Of a stretch of 50,612 nucleotides of DNA, positions 719 through 49,619 are shown piece by piece. Source of the stretch: a virus. Location of the stretch: positions 1-50,612 of IMG/VR virus record IMGVR_UViG_3300049810_001630. One strand, written 5' to 3'. The stretch's first letter is position 1. The number at the start of each line of letters is the position of its first letter. A program made the translations under genes and the position numbers. Under the pieces are notes generated by a model. The model had not been told where the DNA came from. It did no database searches and saw only the letters and a program-made list of their open reading frames with translations.

Positions 719-1921
719 TTAAATTAGTTCCTTTGAATTATTTAGAATAATATCTAAATATGAGTTATTAGTATATGAAATATCAATTAAATTTTTTCGA
801 GTAGTTTCTACCCACTTTTTTAATTCTTCCTTTACATAATTCCACTTATCTTTATCAGCTATAGATTCTTTTATAAATTCACACAACTCATCAAATGAAT
901 TATATCTAAAAGAAAGTATATATGGTTCTTTATTATACTTAGTTTGTATTTTATTGTAAAAATCATACACCTTAAAGGAAGATGATAAAAACAACTTCCC
1001 ACTTAAAATTCTTATTACTGATTTTTCACTTATATAATCTAACTCCATCCACTCATCAATTATTTCAACTTCTGCTAAAGGAAGTATTTTATAATACATT
1101 TCGTGAATATTGTTTATATTAGATTCTCTACCCCAATCATGAATACCATATCCTCTTTTATTAATATAGTTATCTTTTATATGAGCTTGAATATATTTTC
1201 TAAACTCATCTACTTCTTTATCTATATTACTATCAACACTATCATCGGTGAAAGAGTATGAAGAATGTGTTATAAAAACTTCTGGTATTGTTAATAGTTT
1301 TTTAATTTGTTTTATTTTTTCACCAATTATTCTTCTAACCGAATAACTTAATTTATGGTTGGGAGTTATTTGTTTTAAGTAATTATATAAGAAATATGAA
1401 TGTTTTATATCTAAATTAGAATCGTGTATATATGATAGAAAATTGTTAGTAAAAACATAATGATGGTTTTTACAATTAGTAGCTGAAACTATTTCATCTA
1501 CGAATATTTTACAATTTTTAATTTTAGAAATAGGTAATGTGTGATTTCTACCTTCCCAATCTATATAAAAAATATTTAATTTTTCACCAAGAACTCTTCC
1601 TTTTTTAATTAAATCATCTCTAAGTTTATATTCAAAGTAATTTAAAGTTTTATAACTATATCCCCTATCTGTTGAAATTCCTTCTTGCATTAGATAGGTA
1701 TGGATATCAAATATATGATTTCCATCTAGTTTATCCCATTCATCATCTCCACAAAAAATTATTTTAATGGAATCATTTTTATATTTTGTTTCTAGTACTT
1801 GTTTTGTATTTTGTTCCTTAAAAAAATAAGAAGGAATATCTGGTTCTTTTAAATCAGTGCCATGAAAAAAATACCAAACTAAATCATTAGAGTAGTTGTG
1901 ATGTACATAGAATTTTTTCAT
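719..1921 (-). CDS. Glycosyltransferase-like protein, paralogue 2 (tentative)
   Basis: A 400-residue protein clearly paralogous to its upstream neighbour. Both begin with (K)F/IYVHH, and share FFHG near residue 20, YIDWEG near residue 120, an NKRGYGIHDWG/QKRGYGIHDWG motif, and a C-terminal SEKS...GKLF (here) or TEKS...GKPF (neighbour) stretch. An acidic residue, then (S/T)EKs/t, then GKPF is typical of the nucleotide-sugar binding end of several phage glycosyltransferases. That is the only functional clue, so the assignment is tentative. Its ATG overlaps the stop of the upstream gene (ATGA), so translation is probably coupled. This copy has lost about 40 residues and has L for P in GKPF, suggesting divergence after duplication. 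Very AT-rich and Lys/Asn/Ile-rich. Confidence 0.45.
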   Translation of the reverse strand: MKKFYVHHNYSNDLVWYFFHGTDLKEPDIPSYFFKEQNTKQVLETKYKNDSIKIIFCGDDEWDKLDGNHIFDIHTYLMQEGISTDRGYSYKTLNYFEYKLRDDLIKKGRVLGEKLNIFYIDWEGRNHTLPISKIKNCKIFVDEIVSATNCKNHHYVFTNNFLSYIHDSNLDIKHSYFLYNYLKQITPNHKLSYSVRRIIGEKIKQIKKLLTIPEVFITHSSYSFTDDSVDSNIDKEVDEFRKYIQAHIKDNYINKRGYGIHDWGRESNINNIHEMYYKILPLAEVEIIDEWMELDYISEKSVIRILSGKLFLSSSFKVYDFYNKIQTKYNKEPYILSFRYNSFDELCEFIKESIADKDKWNYVKEELKKWVETTRKNLIDISYTNNSYLDIILNNSKELI

Positions 1922-3234
1922 AATATGGATAACGGTTTACTAGATTTATCGGATATAACATAATCCAAATAAGAATTATTTTCATGAATTAACTCAATCA
2001 ATTGTGTTCTTAGGTTATTTACATATATTTTTAGTTTTTCAACAAATTCATTCCATTTGTGTTCATCATATGTTAAGTTATCGATGTAATCCATTTTATC
2101 TAAAATACAATCATATTCTAATGGAAATTCTATTACTTTCTTTCCATACGTTGTTAACCATTTATTATAAAAATCAATAGTTTCTTTATAAAATGGAATA
2201 AATGGCTTACCAACTAGTATATGTGAAATAGATTTTTCTGTTATGAAATTGTTTCCAACTGCTGAAAAACGAGATGTTAATATTCTATCTCGTGTAGGAG
2301 AATGTTCAAATAAAATACATACTTCTGATATCCCAAACATTTTCCACATATTTTCATTCATATTGTTTGAGTTCCACTCACCACCCCAATCATGAATACC
2401 ATATCCTCTTTTTTGTATAAAGTTTTCTTTTGGTATTTTTGAAATTAACTCTTTTCTGTATGGTGTTGGTTTATGAGTATCAGGTGTTATTTGGTTTTCA
2501 TCTCCAAATGATGATTGAGTAACCGAAATAGTTGGATTGTTTAATTTTAAAACAATATTTGCCATTGCTTCTTTATCCCCATACATCCTTCTAATTGGAA
2601 CGTTAATTTTATATTTGTAGTCGTTTTTATATTTTAGGTAATCCCCAAAAAAATAATAATCTCTAACACCCAATGTATTTGGATAGATAAATGACCATAT
2701 TAGATTTGTAAATACAAAGTGATGATTGGGTACTTTTTCTTTTACAGATGTAGTTTCTTCATCCACAAAAAATTGTATTTTAGAACTCATCCTTTTATAC
2801 CACCCTTCCATGATATATGGGTCATGTCCTTCCCAATCAATATAATGGTAATGAATTTTATTATTTAATACTTTAGCTTTAGAATTAAGAAAATCTAAAT
2901 TTTTATTGTTAGTTTCTACCATTAAATTAGAATTGAATCCTCTATCGGAAACCAAACCATCCTCTAATAATTTTATACTATAATCAAATAAATGAAATCC
3001 ATCAGTTTTATCCCAATTTTTTTCATTACAAAATTCTATTTCAATTTTATTATTTTTATAGATTCCATTTAGAATAACACTTTCTTTTACTTTTATATTT
3101 TTATTCCATCTATTATAGTTTCTAAACCAAGTTGGAACATTATCTGGCTCAATCTCTAACCCATGAAAAAATAACCAAAATAATTCATAGGTATAATAAT
3201 GATGTACATAAATTTTAAACTTTTCCATAATCAC
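1918..3234 (-). CDS. Glycosyltransferase-like protein, paralogue 1 (tentative)
   Basis: A 438-residue protein, the longer member of the tandem pair. The C-terminal third holds an acidic segment (ILFEHSP), then FITEKS and a GKPFIPF motif. This resembles the donor-binding end of phage glycosyltransferases related to fucosyltransferase-like folds. The N-terminal half has the pair-specific motifs YVHH, FFHG, a D-rich DKTDGFHLFD and YIDWEGHD. The start codon lies inside the end of the polymerase-like gene (20-base overlap), so the two are probably co-translated. Sugar acceptor unknown: phage DNA bases, a virion protein or host surface glycan are all possible. No membrane segment is seen. Genus of function moderately supported, specificity not. 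Confidence 0.48.
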   Translation of the reverse strand: MIMEKFKIYVHHYYTYELFWLFFHGLEIEPDNVPTWFRNYNRWNKNIKVKESVILNGIYKNNKIEIEFCNEKNWDKTDGFHLFDYSIKLLEDGLVSDRGFNSNLMVETNNKNLDFLNSKAKVLNNKIHYHYIDWEGHDPYIMEGWYKRMSSKIQFFVDEETTSVKEKVPNHHFVFTNLIWSFIYPNTLGVRDYYFFGDYLKYKNDYKYKINVPIRRMYGDKEAMANIVLKLNNPTISVTQSSFGDENQITPDTHKPTPYRKELISKIPKENFIQKRGYGIHDWGGEWNSNNMNENMWKMFGISEVCILFEHSPTRDRILTSRFSAVGNNFITEKSISHILVGKPFIPFYKETIDFYNKWLTTYGKKVIEFPLEYDCILDKMDYIDNLTYDEHKWNEFVEKLKIYVNNLRTQLIELIHENNSYLDYVISDKSSKPLSIL

Positions 3235-4471
3235 TACCCCAATCTACTTTGACAGGAAATCCATAACTTTCGAGAACGGATTTAACCAATTTAATTTCTT
3301 CTACTTCAGAATCATCGAATTCAAATAAGAATGAATCATAAGTGTATAATATAGGAAGAGGAAGTTGTAACTTCTTAAGTTTACTCAGTACCTCAATGTT
3401 GAACTCAGTTTCCGTCGCTTGGAGAATATAGTTGAAGAACTTTTGTGCGTTAGGTTTTTCAATCCAACCTAAAGGTATTTTTCTTCCTTTTGGAGTTTGT
3501 AAGTAACCATTTTTCACCGCCTCTTCTTGCATCTTTCTAATAAACTTATCTACTTTATCAAAGAATGGTATATTTCTATCTTCATCGGATACTCCCCCAT
3601 ATAAGATTCTAAACGTTCTTCCTTTGGATTCCCCATAATCACAACCATATTGGTCTGCTAACCATTGGTGAACCGAACCACTTGGAAGTTTGTATTTAAT
3701 TAACTTACCAATAATTCGGACATGATAAGCATCGTAATCGAATTGTAAGAAGAGTTTTCCTTTTCTTGGAACGAATACATCCCTACTACCATCTTTTTTA
3801 TTAAGAGCACCATAATTGATACCTAAATGTCTATTGGAAGGTCTTGATGTAATCGTGTATGGATTGTACTCGGTGAATGTATTCTCTAAAAGTAATGACT
3901 TTTGGTGAGTAGGCCATCTATCAAAAAATTTTTCCCTATCGACTTGAATCCCTTTTCTCTCGATATCTGAAAGGATAGGAATCATCGTTTCATCCACCCA
4001 ATTGTTTGTATGTTTTATATCCCATTCATCTGCAATACCTCGTAGTACCTCACCCCACTTCATTATAGGGATACTCTTACCCAAACCATCTCTTATACCC
4101 ATTCGGATATAAAAACTCGTTAGAACCTCTAATTTATCACCGAAAGGATATATCTTAAAGTTTTCAAAGAATAAAGAAGTTTGCACATCTTTTAGATTAG
4201 TTACCTTAATATCGGTTTGTAAGAAACCTTTTTTGTTCCAAATCCATTTTGGTTGATTCGAGGTTGATAAATCTATTTCTAACTTTTCACAATCATTATG
4301 GTTGAATGGAAGTATAAAATCAAGATTTCGGAATTGGACATACAAAAATGACAACCTATTATTCATAGGATGTCTTTCCAAATCTTCCCAAATAGGAATA
4401 ATCGTTGATTGTTCGTTATTCCAATATTCGAGAAATTGGTCTTTCTCTTTATTAGTTTCTACTATTACCAT
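3215..4471 (-). CDS. Reduced family A DNA polymerase-like protein
   Basis: A 418-residue protein with the palm and fingers signatures of family A (Pol I) polymerases. Motif A is FDYDAYHVR with Asp245; motif B has K283, F287 and Y291 followed by GG; motif C is YTYDSF with Asp379. TSR (Arg210) corresponds to the TGR before motif A, and GYLQTPKGRKIPL to the GYV.T..GR.R.LP segment. Both catalytic Asp are present. Oddities: the steric-gate Glu of motif A is His250; motif C HDE is YDS; only about 35-40 residues separate the ERKGIQVD segment from TSR, so most of the thumb is missing. Residues 1-130 resemble a decayed 3'-5' exonuclease (I27-W28-E-D30 where DxE is expected). The start is certain because an in-frame TAA directly precedes the ATG. 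T4-type phages normally replicate with a family B enzyme, so this is probably an accessory polymerase. Confidence 0.75.
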   Translation of the reverse strand: MVIVETNKEKDQFLEYWNNEQSTIIPIWEDLERHPMNNRLSFLYVQFRNLDFILPFNHNDCEKLEIDLSTSNQPKWIWNKKGFLQTDIKVTNLKDVQTSLFFENFKIYPFGDKLEVLTSFYIRMGIRDGLGKSIPIMKWGEVLRGIADEWDIKHTNNWVDETMIPILSDIERKGIQVDREKFFDRWPTHQKSLLLENTFTEYNPYTITSRPSNRHLGINYGALNKKDGSRDVFVPRKGKLFLQFDYDAYHVRIIGKLIKYKLPSGSVHQWLADQYGCDYGESKGRTFRILYGGVSDEDRNIPFFDKVDKFIRKMQEEAVKNGYLQTPKGRKIPLGWIEKPNAQKFFNYILQATETEFNIEVLSKLKKLQLPLPILYTYDSFLFEFDDSEVEEIKLVKSVLESYGFPVKVDWGSDYGKV

Positions 4472-4557
4472 TTACCCCACATACCCGCTTTACCACTAAG
4501 ATACATTTCTGTTGATATCTTAATACCAAGGTACATTTCTTTTAATATCTTTTTCAT
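4465..4557 (-). CDS. 30-residue ORF leading the polymerase-like gene
   Basis: A 30-codon ORF reading MKKILKEMYLG... to GMWGKW. Its ATG overlaps the TGA of the preceding 45-codon ORF, and its TAA overlaps the first codons of the polymerase-like gene. It has no recognised domain and repeats the phrase EMYL twice. The stacked stop/start overlaps on both sides argue that it is translated, perhaps as a coupling leader. It could be spurious. Confidence 0.42.
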   Translation of the reverse strand: MKKILKEMYLGIKISTEMYLSGKAGMWGKW

Positions 4558-4691
4558 TCTGTAACTCCATTATTATATTCTAATAGGATTAGTTCTGCAG
4601 TTTCTTCATCTACATAACCACTACCATCGATATCGATTAAGTGTCCTATATAATACATACCATCTTGTTGTGTTAAATCTGTTTTTTTCAT
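4554..4691 (-). CDS. 45-residue acidic protein, first gene of the polymerase operon
   Basis: A 45-codon ORF beginning MKKTDLTQQDG and containing DIDGSGYVDEE. It lies 7 bases downstream of the best Bacteroidota-type promoter in the window (TTTG-N20-TATATTTG), so its mRNA would have almost no leader. Its TGA overlaps the ATG of the next ORF. The DIDGSG stretch looks like an EF-hand loop, but position 12 is Thr rather than Glu and there is no partner loop, so calcium binding is doubtful. Function unknown. Confidence 0.5.
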   Translation of the reverse strand: MKKTDLTQQDGMYYIGHLIDIDGSGYVDEETAELILLEYNNGVTE

Positions 4692-4698
4692 AATATTA

Positions 4699-4730
4699 CA
4701 AATATACGAATTATTTTTGAATTTACCAAA
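4699..4730 (-). promoter_or_regulatory. Bacteroidota-type promoter of the polymerase/glycosyltransferase operon
   Basis: On the coding strand TTTG (4730-4727), a 20-base spacer, then TATATTTG (4706-4699), a full match to the Bacteroidota consensus TTTG / TAnnTTTG. It sits in the gap after the 80-residue gene and only 7 bases before the ATG at 4691, which predicts a leaderless or near-leaderless transcript. Confidence 0.65.
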
Positions 4731-4737
4731 TTATTTT

Positions 4738-4980
4738 TTAAAAAGGTAAAGGTTCATCCTTTTTTTCTTTAGGGATTGGTTTACTCCAATCATCCAATTT
4801 TATGTAATCATATGAAGCAAATGGTTGTATTCCCATTTCTGTGATTTCTGGTCTAGCATTTGGATTTTTTTCATCTATCTCATCTAACATCTTATGTGCA
4901 TTTTTACGAGCCATATAATCATCCTCGCCATACACATACATATCAACTGTTACTACATATCGTGTTCTTGTTTCTTTCAT
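4738..4980 (-). CDS. Hypothetical 80-residue protein
   Basis: Unrecognised small protein. The N-terminal half reads as a beta strand plus helix (RYVVTVDMYVYGEDDYMARKNAHKMLDE) and the C-terminal tail is proline- and charge-rich (PIPKEKKDEPLPF). It starts 3 bases after the stop of the SWIM protein gene and is the last gene before the polymerase operon promoter, so it belongs to the small-gene unit read from upstream promoters. No motif supports a function. Confidence 0.7.
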   Translation of the reverse strand: MKETRTRYVVTVDMYVYGEDDYMARKNAHKMLDEIDEKNPNARPEITEMGIQPFASYDYIKLDDWSKPIPKEKKDEPLPF

Positions 4981-4983
4981 AAT

Positions 4984-5181
4984 TTATATACTTAAATGGT
5001 TTAACTTTTCTTTTAATCTTTTCATATGTTTACAAGGTGAATAAGAACGAAAAGAACGTGCTGGACATTCACAATCATCAATCTTGTAATCAGTTACCCT
5101 TACTTGGTAGTAAGATAACTTACCTGTCTTTTTGTTTCGAGAACCCATTTCTCGATAGTACCAACTATTTGTCATAACCAA
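4984..5181 (-). CDS. Mini SWIM-type zinc-finger protein
   Basis: A 65-residue protein whose second half is a SWIM zinc-finger signature, CxC-x10-CxH: Cys37, Cys39, Cys50 and His52, followed by a basic helix (MKRLKEKLNHL). SWIM fingers occur in DNA- and protein-binding proteins such as MuDR-type transposases, helicases and recombination factors, usually as a small part of a much larger protein. Here the finger is nearly the whole protein, preceded by a strand-rich segment (SYYQVRVTDYKID). It is likely a DNA- or protein-binding accessory factor. The gene overlaps the upstream gene by 17 bases. A start at the second Met (codon 3) is also possible. Confidence 0.68.
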   Translation of the reverse strand: MVMTNSWYYREMGSRNKKTGKLSYYQVRVTDYKIDDCECPARSFRSYSPCKHMKRLKEKLNHLSI

Positions 5182-5488
5182 TAAAATTAAGAGTTACAGG
5201 TGGAACTAATCCTTTTTTAACATAGTAAGGATACTCCTCATTCAACCAATAGTTTTGAACGTTATGTAATTCATTTAAACAATCTTCCCATAATTCACCA
5301 AGGGTATATCCATCACCATATTTGATACCACCACAAAGAACCATTAGTTCATTTAAGGTTTCAAAATCATCATTCTTTTCAGCTTTGTTTATTTGGGTTT
5401 CAATTTCTATCTTCATGAAGTTAGCAACATAATCATTGTACTCATACATTTCTTTACTCCAAGGTTTTGTTATTTTAGGTATTTTCAT
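5165..5488 (-). CDS. Hypothetical 107-residue protein
   Basis: Unrecognised, Tyr/Glu/Asn-rich protein, probably cytoplasmic and mostly helical (EIETQINKAEKNDDFETLNELMVLCGG). The ATG at 5488 is preceded by the leader AAACCTTTAAACCTTT, a variant of the repeat seen before two other small genes here, and no Shine-Dalgarno sequence. Its 3' end overlaps the SWIM gene. Confidence 0.7.
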   Translation of the reverse strand: MKIPKITKPWSKEMYEYNDYVANFMKIEIETQINKAEKNDDFETLNELMVLCGGIKYGDGYTLGELWEDCLNELHNVQNYWLNEEYPYYVKKGLVPPVTLNFIGYDK

Positions 5489-5499
5489 ATTTTAAAGGT

Positions 5500-5799
5500 T
5501 TAAAGGTTTATTTCTTTCATTATATCGTTAAGAATATTATTAAATATCATATCTGTTTTCTTTTTTTCTTGATATTTTTTCTTATTGATTATAGAATTTT
5601 GTTTCTTGATTATCGTATTAAGAGCAGAAATTACATCATTTTTAGTATCACCAATCATACCAACTAACCACTTGGTTCCATCAATATTTAAAGTATCACC
5701 CAAGTTTCTTTCCCACTTAGATAACATATACTGAACTCCGTATAACTCAGTTTTACTCTCATTCATTCTTACTAATCCGATGTGTGTTTCTTTTATCAT
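5500..5799 (-). CDS. Hypothetical 99-residue protein
   Basis: Unrecognised basic, helical protein. I place the start at the ATG at 5799 (MIKETHIGLVRMN) rather than the in-frame TTG at 5835. The TTG would lie at the expected transcription start of the promoter at 5844-5875, whereas the ATG follows an AAACCTTAAAA leader like those of neighbouring genes. The C-terminal half is Lys/Asn-rich with a likely helix (TIIKKQNSIINKKKYQEKKK). Function unknown. Confidence 0.68.
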   Translation of the reverse strand: MIKETHIGLVRMNESKTELYGVQYMLSKWERNLGDTLNIDGTKWLVGMIGDTKNDVISALNTIIKKQNSIINKKKYQEKKKTDMIFNNILNDIMKEINL

Positions 5800-5843
5800 T
5801 TTTAAGGTTTTAATCGTGGTTAAACTCCCACTCAATTACAGTA

Positions 5844-5886
5844 CTAATATACGAAAAATATTTGAATTGACCAAATATTTTAACAC
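5844..5886 (-). promoter_or_regulatory. Bacteroidota-type promoter with upstream GTGTTAAAA box
   Basis: Coding strand: GTGTTA (5886-5881), 5 bases, TTTG (5875-5872), 20 bases, TATATTAG (5851-5844). The -7 box has one mismatch to TAnnTTTG. The GTGTTA box stands at the same distance from the -33 element in the promoter at 6272. It drives the 99-residue gene. Confidence 0.6.
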
Positions 5887-5892
5887 TTTTTT

Positions 5893-6234
5893 TTAAAATT
5901 GGCCATCATCTTCAAATGATACCAATTCTGGTTCAGAATACTTGTATGTTACTGATAAAGTTGGGTTGAATATTGTTTGATATCCACTTTGATTATAAAC
6001 ACTATTAGTAAAGTTACTAATAACTGTATCTATAAAATCTTTTAGAAGATAAGTTCCATCAGAAGAACCAAATCCATCTCCTTCATCCCAATCATTAGTC
6101 CATTCTTCAGCTATTTGTACTGAAATATCAACCAATTCAGAGAATTGAATTTGTTCATCATTAATCATTTGTTTGAAAGAATCAATACCAAGGGCTCTTG
6201 ATACGATATTGGAAGGGTTTACTAAGTAATTCAT
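5893..6234 (-). CDS. Hypothetical 113-residue protein
   Basis: Unrecognised acidic protein. The middle is Asp/Gly-rich (NDWDEGDGFGSSDGTYLLKDF) and the C-terminus is acidic and strand-like. It stands alone between two promoters: the host-like promoter at 6272-6314 gives it a leader of about 30 bases, and another promoter follows its stop. That placement suggests a separately controlled early gene. No motif supports a function. Confidence 0.68.
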   Translation of the reverse strand: MNYLVNPSNIVSRALGIDSFKQMINDEQIQFSELVDISVQIAEEWTNDWDEGDGFGSSDGTYLLKDFIDTVISNFTNSVYNQSGYQTIFNPTLSVTYKYSEPELVSFEDDGQF

Positions 6235-6271
6235 TCGTTTAACTTTTAAGTGTTATTAATTATTTACATAG

Positions 6272-6314
6272 TAAATATACGAAAAATAAATGAGAAATCC
6301 TAATTTTTTAACAC
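6272..6314 (-). promoter_or_regulatory. Bacteroidota-type promoter with upstream GTGTTAAAA box
   Basis: Coding strand: GTGTTA (6314-6309), 5 bases, TTAG (6303-6300), 20 bases, TATATTTA (6279-6272). The -33 box is weak, but the spacing and the upstream box match the promoter at 5844 exactly. It drives the 113-residue gene starting at 6234. Confidence 0.52.
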
Positions 6315-6330
6315 TTTTTTTGCAATTATT

Positions 6331-6519
6331 TTAATCATCCATTAATGAACATTTGAATGTTACTGATTTATCAAAAATAAATTCACAAACAGATTTTTCA
6401 TCTATTTCTGCAACTTCTATTTCTAATTCTATTAACTGAATCTGAGATTTTGATAACCAATCTACTAAGTTGATAGTTAATACTTCGTTTACAATTTCTT
6501 TTATTTTACTTACTGTCAT
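6331..6519 (-). CDS. Hypothetical 62-residue protein
   Basis: Small acidic unrecognised protein, probably a helix plus strand fold (KIKEIVNEVLTINLVDWLS). It is the only gene downstream of the structured region at 6541-6692. Its ATG is preceded by two copies of AACCTTAA instead of a Shine-Dalgarno site. If the structured RNA is a leader, this gene is what it would control. Confidence 0.6.
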   Translation of the reverse strand: MTVSKIKEIVNEVLTINLVDWLSKSQIQLIELEIEVAEIDEKSVCEFIFDKSVTFKCSLMDD

Positions 6520-6540
6520 AATTTAAGGTTTTAAGGTTTT

Positions 6541-6692
6541 ATATTTTTACTTTCTTTATTTTAGTTTTACATCCCCTATTGAACGTAGGGGATGGGATAT
6601 AAGTTGAACCAACTTTTAACGAGCTAATCAATTTCAAACTCGGATGACTTTAGAGTCATCACAACTATGTAAGTAATAAACTTTAAACTTAC
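6541..6692 (-). ncRNA. Multi-hairpin leader or small RNA candidate
   Basis: An untranslated stretch of about 150 bases with four perfect hairpins in series, read on the coding strand: 6692-6669 (GTAAGT/ACTTAC, 12-base loop); 6660-6643 (GATGACT/AGTCATC, 4-base loop); 6615-6601 (AAGTTG/CAACTT, 3-base loop); and 6594-6570 (CATCCCCTA/TAGGGGATG, 7-base loop). A promoter-like pair of boxes ends 4 bases upstream. No T-run follows the last hairpin, so a terminator is not obvious and the RNA may continue into the 62-residue gene as a structured 5' leader. It does not fold as a tRNA. Family unknown. Confidence 0.45.
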
Positions 6693-6696
6693 ACTA

Positions 6697-6728
6697 CGAA
6701 TATACAAAAAAAAGTAATACGAGTCAAG
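6697..6728 (-). promoter_or_regulatory. Bacteroidota-type promoter before the structured RNA
   Basis: Coding strand: CTTG (6728-6725), 20 bases, TATATTCG (6704-6697). It gives TTG-N20-TAnnTTnG, one mismatch in the -7 box. It lies directly upstream of the first hairpin, so transcription should start at the foot of the structured region. Confidence 0.5.
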
Positions 6729-6789
6729 TAAAATGTGATTTATTTTACCAGTTTATATTGATTCTAAATAAGAATAATTTTATTTTTTG

Positions 6790-7545
6790 TTAAGAAATTT
6801 TAGCTGAACCTACATCGATTGGTTCTCTCTTCATATGATTACCTGATGCAAAGTTTGCACCTTCTTTGATATAGCCAGTTAGGAATGCTCTTCTAAATCT
6901 TTGGGAATTATTTGGCTCTGAACCATGTACTACATTTGAATGAAGTAAAGCAACCTGTCCTTTCCTCAAATATCCATCTATATGTGTAAAGTTATGGTCA
7001 TTAGGCAATATACATGGTTTACCTCTCTCATTCCTCCAATTCTTTGGATTTGAACCAGCTCTTTCTTCATCTATTTCTATTGGTAATCTACCTAACTTAT
7101 GTGAACCTTCTAAATACCAAACAGAACCATTATTGGGGTCGTGATTATCAAAAGCAAGAGAAATGTTTACAATTTCATTTGTATTACATTGTGTATAAAA
7201 TATATTTTGATGTTGGTCTCTTCCTAATTGACCTGGTGGTTTAAAGTATGCCCAAGATTGTACTGCAAATATTTTAGATTCCATTACAAATTCACAAGCT
7301 TCTATAATTTTAGGATGTTTCATCAATTCATATAACTTAGAAGATTGTTTATGTGGATGCATAAATGGGTCATATTCTCCCCATTGTTTTTCAGTATCAT
7401 TAGTTTGTCGTTGAATTCTGATTCGTTCTAACTCCTCAGCATATGAATCTACTTCACTCTCGGTTAGTAGATTTAAAATAGATACTCCTTTGTATCTCCA
7501 ATCAAATTGTAGTTGTTGTTTTTCTTCTTGTGATAAATAACTCAT
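6790..7545 (-). CDS. PhyH-type Fe(II)/2-oxoglutarate dioxygenase family protein
   Basis: A 251-residue protein of the phytanoyl-CoA dioxygenase (PhyH) superfamily. It has the usual layout: HQNIFY at residues 112-117 (family HQD..Y), then the strand pair SLAFDNHDPNNGSVWYLEGSHK (129-150; family consensus A.DD....NG.L...PGSH), a distal HSNVVHGSEPN with His207, and a downstream RFRRAF that supplies the Arg binding the 2-oxoglutarate carboxylate. The second metal ligand, normally Asp, is Asn114, so the facial triad is H-x-N...H. That may mean an altered or lost activity. PhyH proteins are common in T4-like phages of marine hosts; targets are mostly unknown. It lies between the baseplate genes and the early-type genes with no clear promoter of its own. 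Confidence 0.82.
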   Translation of the reverse strand: MSYLSQEEKQQLQFDWRYKGVSILNLLTESEVDSYAEELERIRIQRQTNDTEKQWGEYDPFMHPHKQSSKLYELMKHPKIIEACEFVMESKIFAVQSWAYFKPPGQLGRDQHQNIFYTQCNTNEIVNISLAFDNHDPNNGSVWYLEGSHKLGRLPIEIDEERAGSNPKNWRNERGKPCILPNDHNFTHIDGYLRKGQVALLHSNVVHGSEPNNSQRFRRAFLTGYIKEGANFASGNHMKREPIDVGSAKIS

Positions 7546-7577
7546 ATAACATATTTTACTTTGTATATGTATATATA

Positions 7578-7967
7578 TTAACTTTTATAAAATTGTAATA
7601 AATTTGGTAAATATAATTTTAATGTAGGTATCAAATGAGATACTAGTTTTATTGATATTCTATTTGATTCAGATACCGCTTTATCTGTAATATTACCGAC
7701 TGAATCATATTGTGTTTCCATTGGGCCTTTTATTCTCCATTTTAATTCAACAATAGTATATAAAGAATTAGTTATAAACCTATTTCTATCTCTTTTGGAA
7801 ATCTCATATATAGGAGAACCTTTATCGTTAGTTTTTTGAATAAAATATCTTTTAACAAATCCTCTACGATAATCCACATCTTTTAAGACTGGCAAATACG
7901 CAATAATACTAATCTCCTTTGGAGTTTTTTTTATAATTTGGCTATATCTTTTAAAATTTGAATCCAT
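7578..7967 (-). CDS. Hypothetical virion-associated protein, baseplate cluster
   Basis: A 129-residue protein starting MDSNFKRYSQII. The motif DYRRGFVKRYFIQKTND followed by ELKWRIKGP resembles small structural proteins that many myoviruses keep next to the hub gene, but I do not know a defined function. Its ATG overlaps the stop of the hub-like gene (TAATG), so production is coupled. It is the last gene of the tail/baseplate unit. Structural role is inference from position. Confidence 0.55.
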   Translation of the reverse strand: MDSNFKRYSQIIKKTPKEISIIAYLPVLKDVDYRRGFVKRYFIQKTNDKGSPIYEISKRDRNRFITNSLYTIVELKWRIKGPMETQYDSVGNITDKAVSESNRISIKLVSHLIPTLKLYLPNLLQFYKS

Positions 7968-47871: not shown

Positions 47872-47904
47872 ATATTTTATTCCTTAGTTATACAATTATA
47901 CTCT

Positions 47905-47912
47905 TATAAATA
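47905..47912 (-). promoter_or_regulatory. Late-type promoter box TATTTATA before the neck genes
   Basis: TTATATTTATAAGAG on the coding strand, 33 bases before the gp13-like ATG and just after the capsid terminator. Confidence 0.58.
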
Positions 47913-47941
47913 TAAAATAAACGAAAAGGAGGGTATAATAT

Positions 47942-47976
47942 AAAAAAAGAGGGAAACCTTTTCAGGAATCCCTCTT
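47942..47976 (-). terminator. Rho-independent terminator after the major capsid gene
   Basis: Coding strand AAGAGGGA/TCCCTCTT, 8-base stem with an inner CCT/AGG pairing, followed by seven T. It lies 50 bases after the capsid stop. Confidence 0.82.
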
Positions 47977-48026
47977 AAATTATTGATACTCTATTAGAAT
48001 ATCTAAGTTTAAAACTTAATTAACGA

Positions 48027-49619
48027 TTATACGTTAGCTAAATCTTTTACATAGATTTTTCCGTAGAATTCAGGTCTAACCATTTTCTTAGCGTATCTCG
48101 TCATAACTCCTCTTCTTGGAGTGAAGTTAGTCGGGTCATACACTAAAGGTGTCATGATTAATGGTACATACGGTGCATAAACAGCTCCAGTTTCAAGGAA
48201 ATTACTTCCTTTAAATCCTAACAAGATTTCGTTTGAAGTCATGTAAGGGTTTTTGTAAACTGTGTATCTGTTTGCAATAGAACCAACAGTAGTTACACCA
48301 GCTGCGAAAGATGAAGCATCTTTATCAGCAGATACAGTAAATCCTGGGATAGATTCTAAAATAGTACATACGTCTGGAGAAGCAACAACGAAGTTTGCTC
48401 CACCTCTAAGTGTTAATTGGTGAATCTTGTTAGAAACTTTGTTAAGTTTCGCTCCAAGAGTCTGGAACCAAGAGTTCTTAGTATAAGCAGCTGAATTAGT
48501 TCCAGCAACCCATGCACCAGTTGAAGAGTTATACTCCTCACCTAAAGATACAGACCAGTATTCAGTAGTTAAAGCGTTAGCTTTTAACATATCAAGGATT
48601 TCAAGGTCAATCTCTAATGAGATGTACTCTGATAACATTGAAGTTAATTCAGCTTCAGCATCAATACTGTGGTATGCATTTAAATCTTGTGCTAATTCAG
48701 GTGTCCATACAGCCTTTAGTTTTCTAGTCTTAGCAACAATTGCTTCAGACTTTAATTCTAAATCAACTTCAGGAATACCAACATCAGCTCCAGTTTTATC
48801 TTCAAAATCACCTCTGTTTTCAGCAATTGGCTGTTGAGAATGTTTTACAGTAAGAGCATCTACGAAATCCTTACCATCTCCACCTTTTGCGAAAAATTCG
48901 ATGTTTGCACCATTTACTTTAGAGTAAGCTGGGTAAAAAGCATCTGCCGCTGAGAAATCAGAAGCTGAAATATAGAAACTTCTTACAGCATCTAAATCAG
49001 GTCTTACTAATCCTGCATGAGCGATTACAACTTTTTGAATCTCGTTATCAGCAACTGATGCAGATAATGCAGAATCATATTGTACGTCTGCCCATGAAGC
49101 AGTTGTAGCAGTTACAGAACCAGCAGCGATATCAATAGATACATCGTTTGCAGAGTATCCAAATCTACCTTCACCATATAAACCATTTACAGCTGAATCA
49201 GTTGAACCTAAGTCAGCTCCAGTACCACCAAAAAGTGAATTACCACTAAATCCAGGATTACCTGGTTGAGCAGTACCATACTTAAAGTCTAAATAAAAGA
49301 TTAGACCAGAAGGAAGGTTCATTGGTTGTACACTAACGAATTCTTTCGATGCAATTTCACCGAAGATACGTCTTACTAATGGAAGGGCTACCCCACTCCA
49401 TTCTTCACTACCAGCTGATGTACCAGTTGCAGTGGATTCGTCAAGCAATTGTTTTGCTTGGTTTTCTAACAATACAGAAATCTGTGATTGTTCTCTTTCT
49501 CCTAAACCTTCTAAAAGTCCAGTTTGTTCCCATTTTCCTTTAAGCTCTCTTGTTTCAGCAAGCATAACTGATTGTGGGTTCTTTCCTTCCATTAGTTTAG
49601 ATAAATCAAAATTTGCCAT
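48027..49619 (-). CDS. Major capsid protein (gp23-like)
   Basis: A 530-residue T4-type major capsid protein. Key phrases are KWEQTGLLEGL, ISVLLENQAKQLLDE, VALPLVRRIFGEIASKEFVSVQPMNLPSGLIFYLDFKYG near residues 78-115, VKTRKLKAVWTPELAQDL-type (IVAKTRKLKAVWTPELAQDLNAYHSID), and C-terminal PLVYDPTNFTPRRGVMTRYAKKMVRPEFYGKIYVKDL. Length is close to T4 gp23 (521). The N-terminal part is probably removed by the prohead protease, which is not in this window. AAGGAG upstream, scaffold gene 28 bases before it, terminator after it. Confidence 0.96.
   Translation of the reverse strand: MANFDLSKLMEGKNPQSVMLAETRELKGKWEQTGLLEGLGEREQSQISVLLENQAKQLLDESTATGTSAGSEEWSGVALPLVRRIFGEIASKEFVSVQPMNLPSGLIFYLDFKYGTAQPGNPGFSGNSLFGGTGADLGSTDSAVNGLYGEGRFGYSANDVSIDIAAGSVTATTASWADVQYDSALSASVADNEIQKVVIAHAGLVRPDLDAVRSFYISASDFSAADAFYPAYSKVNGANIEFFAKGGDGKDFVDALTVKHSQQPIAENRGDFEDKTGADVGIPEVDLELKSEAIVAKTRKLKAVWTPELAQDLNAYHSIDAEAELTSMLSEYISLEIDLEILDMLKANALTTEYWSVSLGEEYNSSTGAWVAGTNSAAYTKNSWFQTLGAKLNKVSNKIHQLTLRGGANFVVASPDVCTILESIPGFTVSADKDASSFAAGVTTVGSIANRYTVYKNPYMTSNEILLGFKGSNFLETGAVYAPYVPLIMTPLVYDPTNFTPRRGVMTRYAKKMVRPEFYGKIYVKDLANV

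Follow-up and report, generated by a model that had tools for sequence, protein, structure and literature searches.

A hairpin array between a host-type promoter and a 62-residue gene in a phage with a T4-type capsid: a candidate structured leader

Stem-loops close to promoters have been described in several settings. In T4-type phages, promoter-stem-loop cassettes known as PeSL go together with gene shuffling (Arbiol 2010 and Comeau 2014, as cited in PMC4503421 and PMC3950731, both in part). In phage HK022, the putL RNA of about 70 nt, with two stem-loops, lies straight after the promoter (PMC9378689, in part). Hairpins in the 5' UTR stabilise the mRNA of recA and vacA in other bacteria (PMC7509114, in part).

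Here we describe an array of hairpins found in 50,612 nt of viral DNA, positions 1 to 50,612 of the IMG/VR record IMGVR_UViG_3300049810_001630 (the window). RNA elements of Bacteroidota phages are, to our knowledge, poorly known. A description of the array was not found in the literature on phage small RNAs, put RNA, anti-CRISPR RNAs, structured RNAs and phage leaders, which was covered mostly at the level of titles and abstracts. The array is best called a previously undescribed structured leader, structured leaders themselves being known.

Architecture of the locus

All large genes of the window are on the minus strand. The gene of a T4-type major capsid protein gp23 was located at 48027-49619, with annotated closest relatives including Flavobacterium phage immuto, a Microcystis phage and Rhodothermus phage RM378. 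Given these relatives and the type of promoter described below, the host of the phage is probably a member of Bacteroidota. Right after the capsid gene, a strong fold at 47872-48026 (minus strand; tile 47921, z -5.2) is possibly the terminator of that gene. A 418-aa protein encoded at 3215-4471 (minus strand) matched only the C-terminal part of DNA polymerase (phrog_17); because immuto too has two annotated family A polymerase genes, the polymerase of the window phage may be split. The neighbouring genes 719-1921 and 1918-3234 (minus strand) appeared by eye to encode proteins with similar N-termini, and a duplication is possible.

The array is situated in a non-coding gap of 270 nt (6520-6789), which the first-pass annotation had taken to be 150 bases long. 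The gap separates the stop of a PhyH-like dioxygenase gene from a 62-aa ORF (6331-6519, minus strand, ATG at 6519) that had no family match and is downstream of the array. The PhyH-like gene (6790-7545, minus strand) is phytanoyl-CoA dioxygenase-like (PF05721) and has a 77% identical homologue, beside a different gene, in a relative of 276 kb.

On the minus strand, the predicted transcript would run from the promoter through five hairpins (6693-6570, 124 nt) and then, over an A-rich stretch, reach the ATG of the 62-aa gene. Hairpin 1 (6668-6693), at the predicted 5' end, has 7 bp and a 12-nt loop, while hairpin 2 (6643-6660) has 7 bp and the 4-nt loop CUAA. Hairpin 3 (6620-6642) has 6 bp, including one U.G pair, and an 11-nt loop; hairpin 4 (6601-6615) has 6 bp and a 3-nt loop; hairpin 5 (6570-6594) has 9 bp and a 7-nt loop. 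Four perfect stems of 6, 7, 6 and 9 bp had been reported earlier; four stems are indeed perfect, but their lengths are 7, 7, 6 and 9 bp and there are five hairpins in all. The A-rich run (6520-6569) is unstructured, has no T-run and reaches the start codon. The earlier remark that no terminator T-run closes the array agreed with a scan of 5800-7000, where zero terminator-like sites were found. An 11-codon reading frame was seen by eye to begin inside hairpin 2, with its start buried in the stem and invariant among the versions of the array.

The promoter proposed beside the hairpins was recovered by direct reading as an exact match to TTG-N20-TATATTCG at 6727-6697 on the minus strand (TTGACT-17-TATATT), a pattern of the Bacteroidota, or host, sigma type. 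In a sigma-70-type scan it scored 10 out of 12, the top of seven sites in 5800-7000, a number of sites that is not above that in shuffled sequences (mean 8.0). Its -7 box agrees with the flavobacterial consensus TAnnTTTG (PMC9723704, in part) except for a C in place of T at one position. The narrow pattern TTYGTATATT occurs at four places in the window, within 4710-6708, and nowhere in 7000-50612; further promoters lie beyond the array at 6283, 5855 and 4710.

Upstream of the promoter is an intergenic cassette (6728-6789, minus strand), in which a 7-bp hairpin (6748-6728) with no T-run abuts the TTG. This cassette is repeated in relatives. Together with the promoter (6791-6706) it was 98.8% identical over 86 nt to contig L011, which has no array, and the same 276-kb relative carries a related copy (89% over 93 nt) before another gene.

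Two further elements were observed at promoters of this phage group. The palindrome TATTTACTATGTAAATA spans the -7 box and start region in many of them (6283-6260 of the window, minus strand; 24658, 162435, 171441, 172191, 232152 and 247581 of contig G001) and could serve a phage regulator as its operator. Other leaders have one short hairpin of the GGGG-loop-CCCC type just past the promoter (5836-5855 of the window, minus strand; G001 25319 and 250065), with a different sequence in the window's copy.

We confirmed that the hairpin array is real and beyond chance. The minimum energy of the minus strand was -45.6 kcal/mol (z -4.9) and that of the plus strand -40.3 kcal/mol (z -4.25), and 0 of 200 shuffles was as good in either case. 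Among 1262 tiles of 160 nt across the window, with 20 shuffles per tile, the array tile (6561) ranked first on the plus strand (z -6.6) and sixth on the minus strand (z -4.9). Four or more perfect hairpins were present in none of 3000 first-order random sequences. The density of stems had been described as not seen elsewhere in the window, and this holds for stem bases, with a maximum of 29 bp per 150 nt at the array and 24 for the runner-up, in a coding gene; it does not hold for the count of hairpins, as one coding stretch (13381) also contains five within a 188-nt frame. The 276-kb relative has a stretch with 34 stem pairs, above the array, and others with 27 and 25. Therefore, perfect stems alone are no unique signature in AT-rich DNA, and the distinctive feature is the combination of dense perfect stems with a non-coding leader.

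Hairpin 3 is more stable on the minus strand (-4.3 vs -1.1 kcal/mol), while hairpin 5 shows a slight preference for the plus strand (-13.0 minus vs -14.7 plus). Since folding energies do not decide the strand, it was assigned from the promoter and the gene.

Distribution of the array among relatives

The 62-aa protein was found in five viral contigs at 81-100% identity, or 81-98% apart from L005, where the gene is cut by the contig end. Among the six records encoding the gene, the array precedes it in four (the window, L005, L006 and L004) and is absent before it in two (L010 and L011). Because L005 is the window phage itself (100% over 1197 nt), there are three distinct versions of the array. 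Their leaders are 179, 179 and 169 nt long with folds of -37 to -39 kcal/mol, compared to 26 and 40 nt with folds of -3.1 and 0 kcal/mol for the leaders of the two relatives that do not have the array. Thus not every phage with the 62-aa gene needs the array. The same gene with and without the array in close relatives makes a natural experiment.

Promoters of this kind occur at 18 places in the 276-kb relative, of which 15 yield leaders of 16-74 nt with folds from 0 to -9.4 kcal/mol; the other three, with no start codon within 500 nt, are probably chance matches. Flavobacterial 5' UTRs average 65 nt in length, with a median of 24 nt (PMC9723704, in part).

Over 128 alignment columns, L006 differs from the window at three positions and L004 only within hairpin 5, while L004 and the window share 85.5% identity in the 62-aa gene. 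L006 has lost the outer pair of hairpin 1; the pairing of hairpins 1-4 is otherwise invariant. Hairpin 5 alone has changed inside its stem and kept its pairing: in L004 one pair is changed on both sides, one C-G pair has become U.G and three loop-side bases are lost. Of 139 pair cells, 99.3% are kept. The search for compensatory changes, which the first-pass annotation had recommended, thus turned up, within hairpin 5 of L004, one compensatory pair out of 35 and a single change from C-G to U.G, a result equalled in 104 of 500 shuffles with these three versions. With only three distinct versions covariation is not established, and the divergence of hairpin 5 is suggestive support for a conserved structure rather than proof.

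We also observed that the upstream region, promoter included, is as similar between relatives as the array itself. Near-identity reaching the promoter, together with reshuffled flanking genes, means that recombination can explain the conservation; from the pattern of conservation in these sequences, selective constraint and recent recombination are indistinguishable.

The reshuffling is evident from gene order. In the window the order is 129aa-PhyH-array-62aa-113aa-111aa-107aa. In the 276-kb relative these neighbours are split over three places, two of them preceded by copies of the promoter cassette: 129aa/PhyH occupy 161-162 kb, 113aa/111aa are at 25 kb, and the third place has 62aa (171.5 kb, preceded by a different gene) and 107aa (172.6 kb). 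The gene before the 62-aa gene is a 133-aa gene, not PhyH, in L004, L006, L010 and the 276-kb relative. Small genes are reshuffled with joints at promoter cassettes when 4471-7967 of the window is set against 24.7-25.7, 161.3-162.4 and 171.0-172.9 kb of G001. Shuffling at promoter stem-loops, as known from T4-type phages, would give rise to such a mosaic (as cited in PMC4503421 and PMC3950731, both in part).

Searches for further copies returned the same few records. A covariance model run on 27 sources gave significant scores only in the four records with the array (next E-value 0.54). Run on 12 whole phage records, which include Flavobacterium phage immuto, Tenacibaculum PTm1, Chryseobacterium MA9V-1, Cellulophaga phi14:2, Bacteroides DAC19, Rhodothermus RM378 and LR756508, it gave a single chance-level match, in RM378 (E 0.16). 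Comparison with RNA families, also recommended at first pass, gave no Rfam match at the gathering score or at E-values up to 10, and a tRNA/tmRNA search found none.

The exact pattern of hairpin 2 was present in six stretches, three of them with the array. A looser version gave 42 stretches, with the array in three (L004, L005 and L006); the other 39, viewed with 60-80 nt of context, were rejected as apparent chance matches. Patterns of hairpins 3/4 and of hairpin 4 led to the same three contigs, and the promoter pattern to nine stretches in eight contigs, three with the array. Genome contigs had no match to a 27-nt pattern and none among 56 candidates for the 62-aa protein. Against phage records, the best blastn E-value was 1, which we judged to be noise; a longer query reached 3e-4, in or near the 62-aa gene and outside the array, and the 62-aa protein had a single match (E 4).

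The leader reading and its alternatives

Because a promoter lies upstream, a gene on the same strand lies downstream, no terminator intervenes and the linkage to the 62-aa gene is conserved, we consider it probable that the array is transcribed as a structured 5' leader of the message of this gene. The best reading is a leader inside a swappable promoter cassette, and among relatives the whole array is present or absent while the promoter and the gene stay. Minus-strand transcription from the host-type promoter would put the array at the front of the 62-aa gene message. The array would travel with the cassette, neighbouring genes being reshuffled at cassette copies. Of the two options offered at first pass, a regulatory leader for the 62-residue gene or a processed RNA, the former thus fits the promoter, the orientation, the missing terminator and the linkage, while a separate RNA is less likely.

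As for function, we infer both the transcription of the array and its role from the sequence. As the likeliest mechanism, the array would act in cis, self-contained hairpins from the 5' end onward hindering 5'-end-dependent mRNA decay; it may also supply a processing boundary, and the A-rich run would stay open for the ribosome. Self-contained hairpins followed by an open A-rich run fit 5'-end protection or processing. We put such a stability or processing role forward tentatively, as somewhat short of an even chance, and the same holds for a structured leader and this role taken jointly. One 5' hairpin would suffice for stability, so that five exceed the need, which counts against the stability role. 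The pair probability of hairpin 1, only 0.16-0.17 when the leader is folded with the gene start, and the two relatives that do not have the array count against the leader-plus-role explanation. If the array is cis-acting, then the shuffling of promoter cassettes also exchanges an RNA leader.

Alternatively, hairpins 1-5 could be cut off in the A-rich run to form a separate trans-acting small RNA that acts on a defence system or on an RNA or protein of the host, the 62-aa gene being only a passenger behind it; the array would then be a new phage RNA. The loops and linkers of hairpins 1-4 are invariant between versions with 85.5% gene identity, some relatives keep the gene without the array, and RNA anti-CRISPRs are a precedent for such RNAs in phages (PMC10651486, in part). 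We regard this as unlikely, given that the array is always before the same 62-aa gene, that no known RNA is alike, and that neither a terminator in 5800-7000 nor an Rfam match at E 10 was found. A terminated small RNA was rejected for want of a T-run.

It is likewise improbable that the array acts as DNA, as cassette inverted repeats serving recombination or gene shuffling in the manner of the T4-type promoter stem-loops, with the RNA fold a by-product. Flanking genes are indeed reshuffled at cassettes, the cassette stands before two genes in the 276-kb relative, and the window and L004 are identical as far as hairpin 4 and diverge from hairpin 5 on, as at a crossover. However, the five stems are unlike in sequence and have no copies elsewhere, they are downstream of the promoter within the transcript and not upstream as a terminator would be, and one stem contains a U.G pair that is open on the other strand.

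More speculatively, and with a low probability in our view, the array could be a new structured RNA of about 125 nt, encoded by the phage and brought along by a promoter cassette as an interchangeable leader module, whose target in the host would be an RNase, the RNA polymerase or a defence system at an early stage of infecting Bacteroidota. A put-like RNA, whose nascent hairpins would bind the host RNA polymerase in cis so that later pauses and terminators are ignored, is very unlikely. The array does come directly after a host-type promoter, as HK022 putL does (PMC9378689, in part), but it has five stems over 124 nt instead of two. With no terminator-like site in 5800-7000 and promoters following at 6283, 5855 and 4710, there is also little visible need for antitermination. 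Finally, a translational switch, in which the 3' arm of hairpin 1 (UUACUUAC) would alternate between its own 5' arm and codons 3-5 (GUAAGUAA), the second pairing closing the start codon, is highly improbable: the 8-nt complement is exact and is used in the lowest-energy structure of the leader joined to the start of the gene, but the duplex energy of the leader with its own start ranked 15th of 35 window gene starts (P 0.09 vs shuffled leaders) and the accessibility of the start was ordinary (P 0.105 at 20 C and 0.47 at 37 C), so this pairing is unsupported.

Comparison with described systems

The locus resembles the T4-type PeSL in that a host-type promoter and a stem-loop form an intergenic unit which is repeated, in the shuffling of neighbouring genes and in belonging to a phage with a T4-type capsid; it differs in that no terminator was found and in that the large array follows the promoter, as part of the message, and occurs at a single locus (Arbiol 2010 and Comeau 2014, as cited in part of PMC4503421 and PMC3950731). 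Taken feature by feature, a host-type promoter in an intergenic gap is present, a repeat at the joints of gene modules is present for the promoter part and absent for the hairpin array, and a stem-loop terminator joined to the promoter is absent (zero sites in 5800-7000). We did not class the array locus as PeSL because the terminator part was not found.

Stem-loops early in a phage transcript are shared with the HK022 putRNA; here there are five unlike stems (PMC9378689, in part). Flavo-1 and other Rfam leader motifs are, as the array would be, structured 5' leaders of flavobacterial-type genomes, and the array is without an Rfam match (PMC9723704, in part). The stabilising 5' UTRs of recA and vacA carry hairpins in the 5' leader as here, while here five follow in a row and a role in stability is predicted (PMC7509114, in part).
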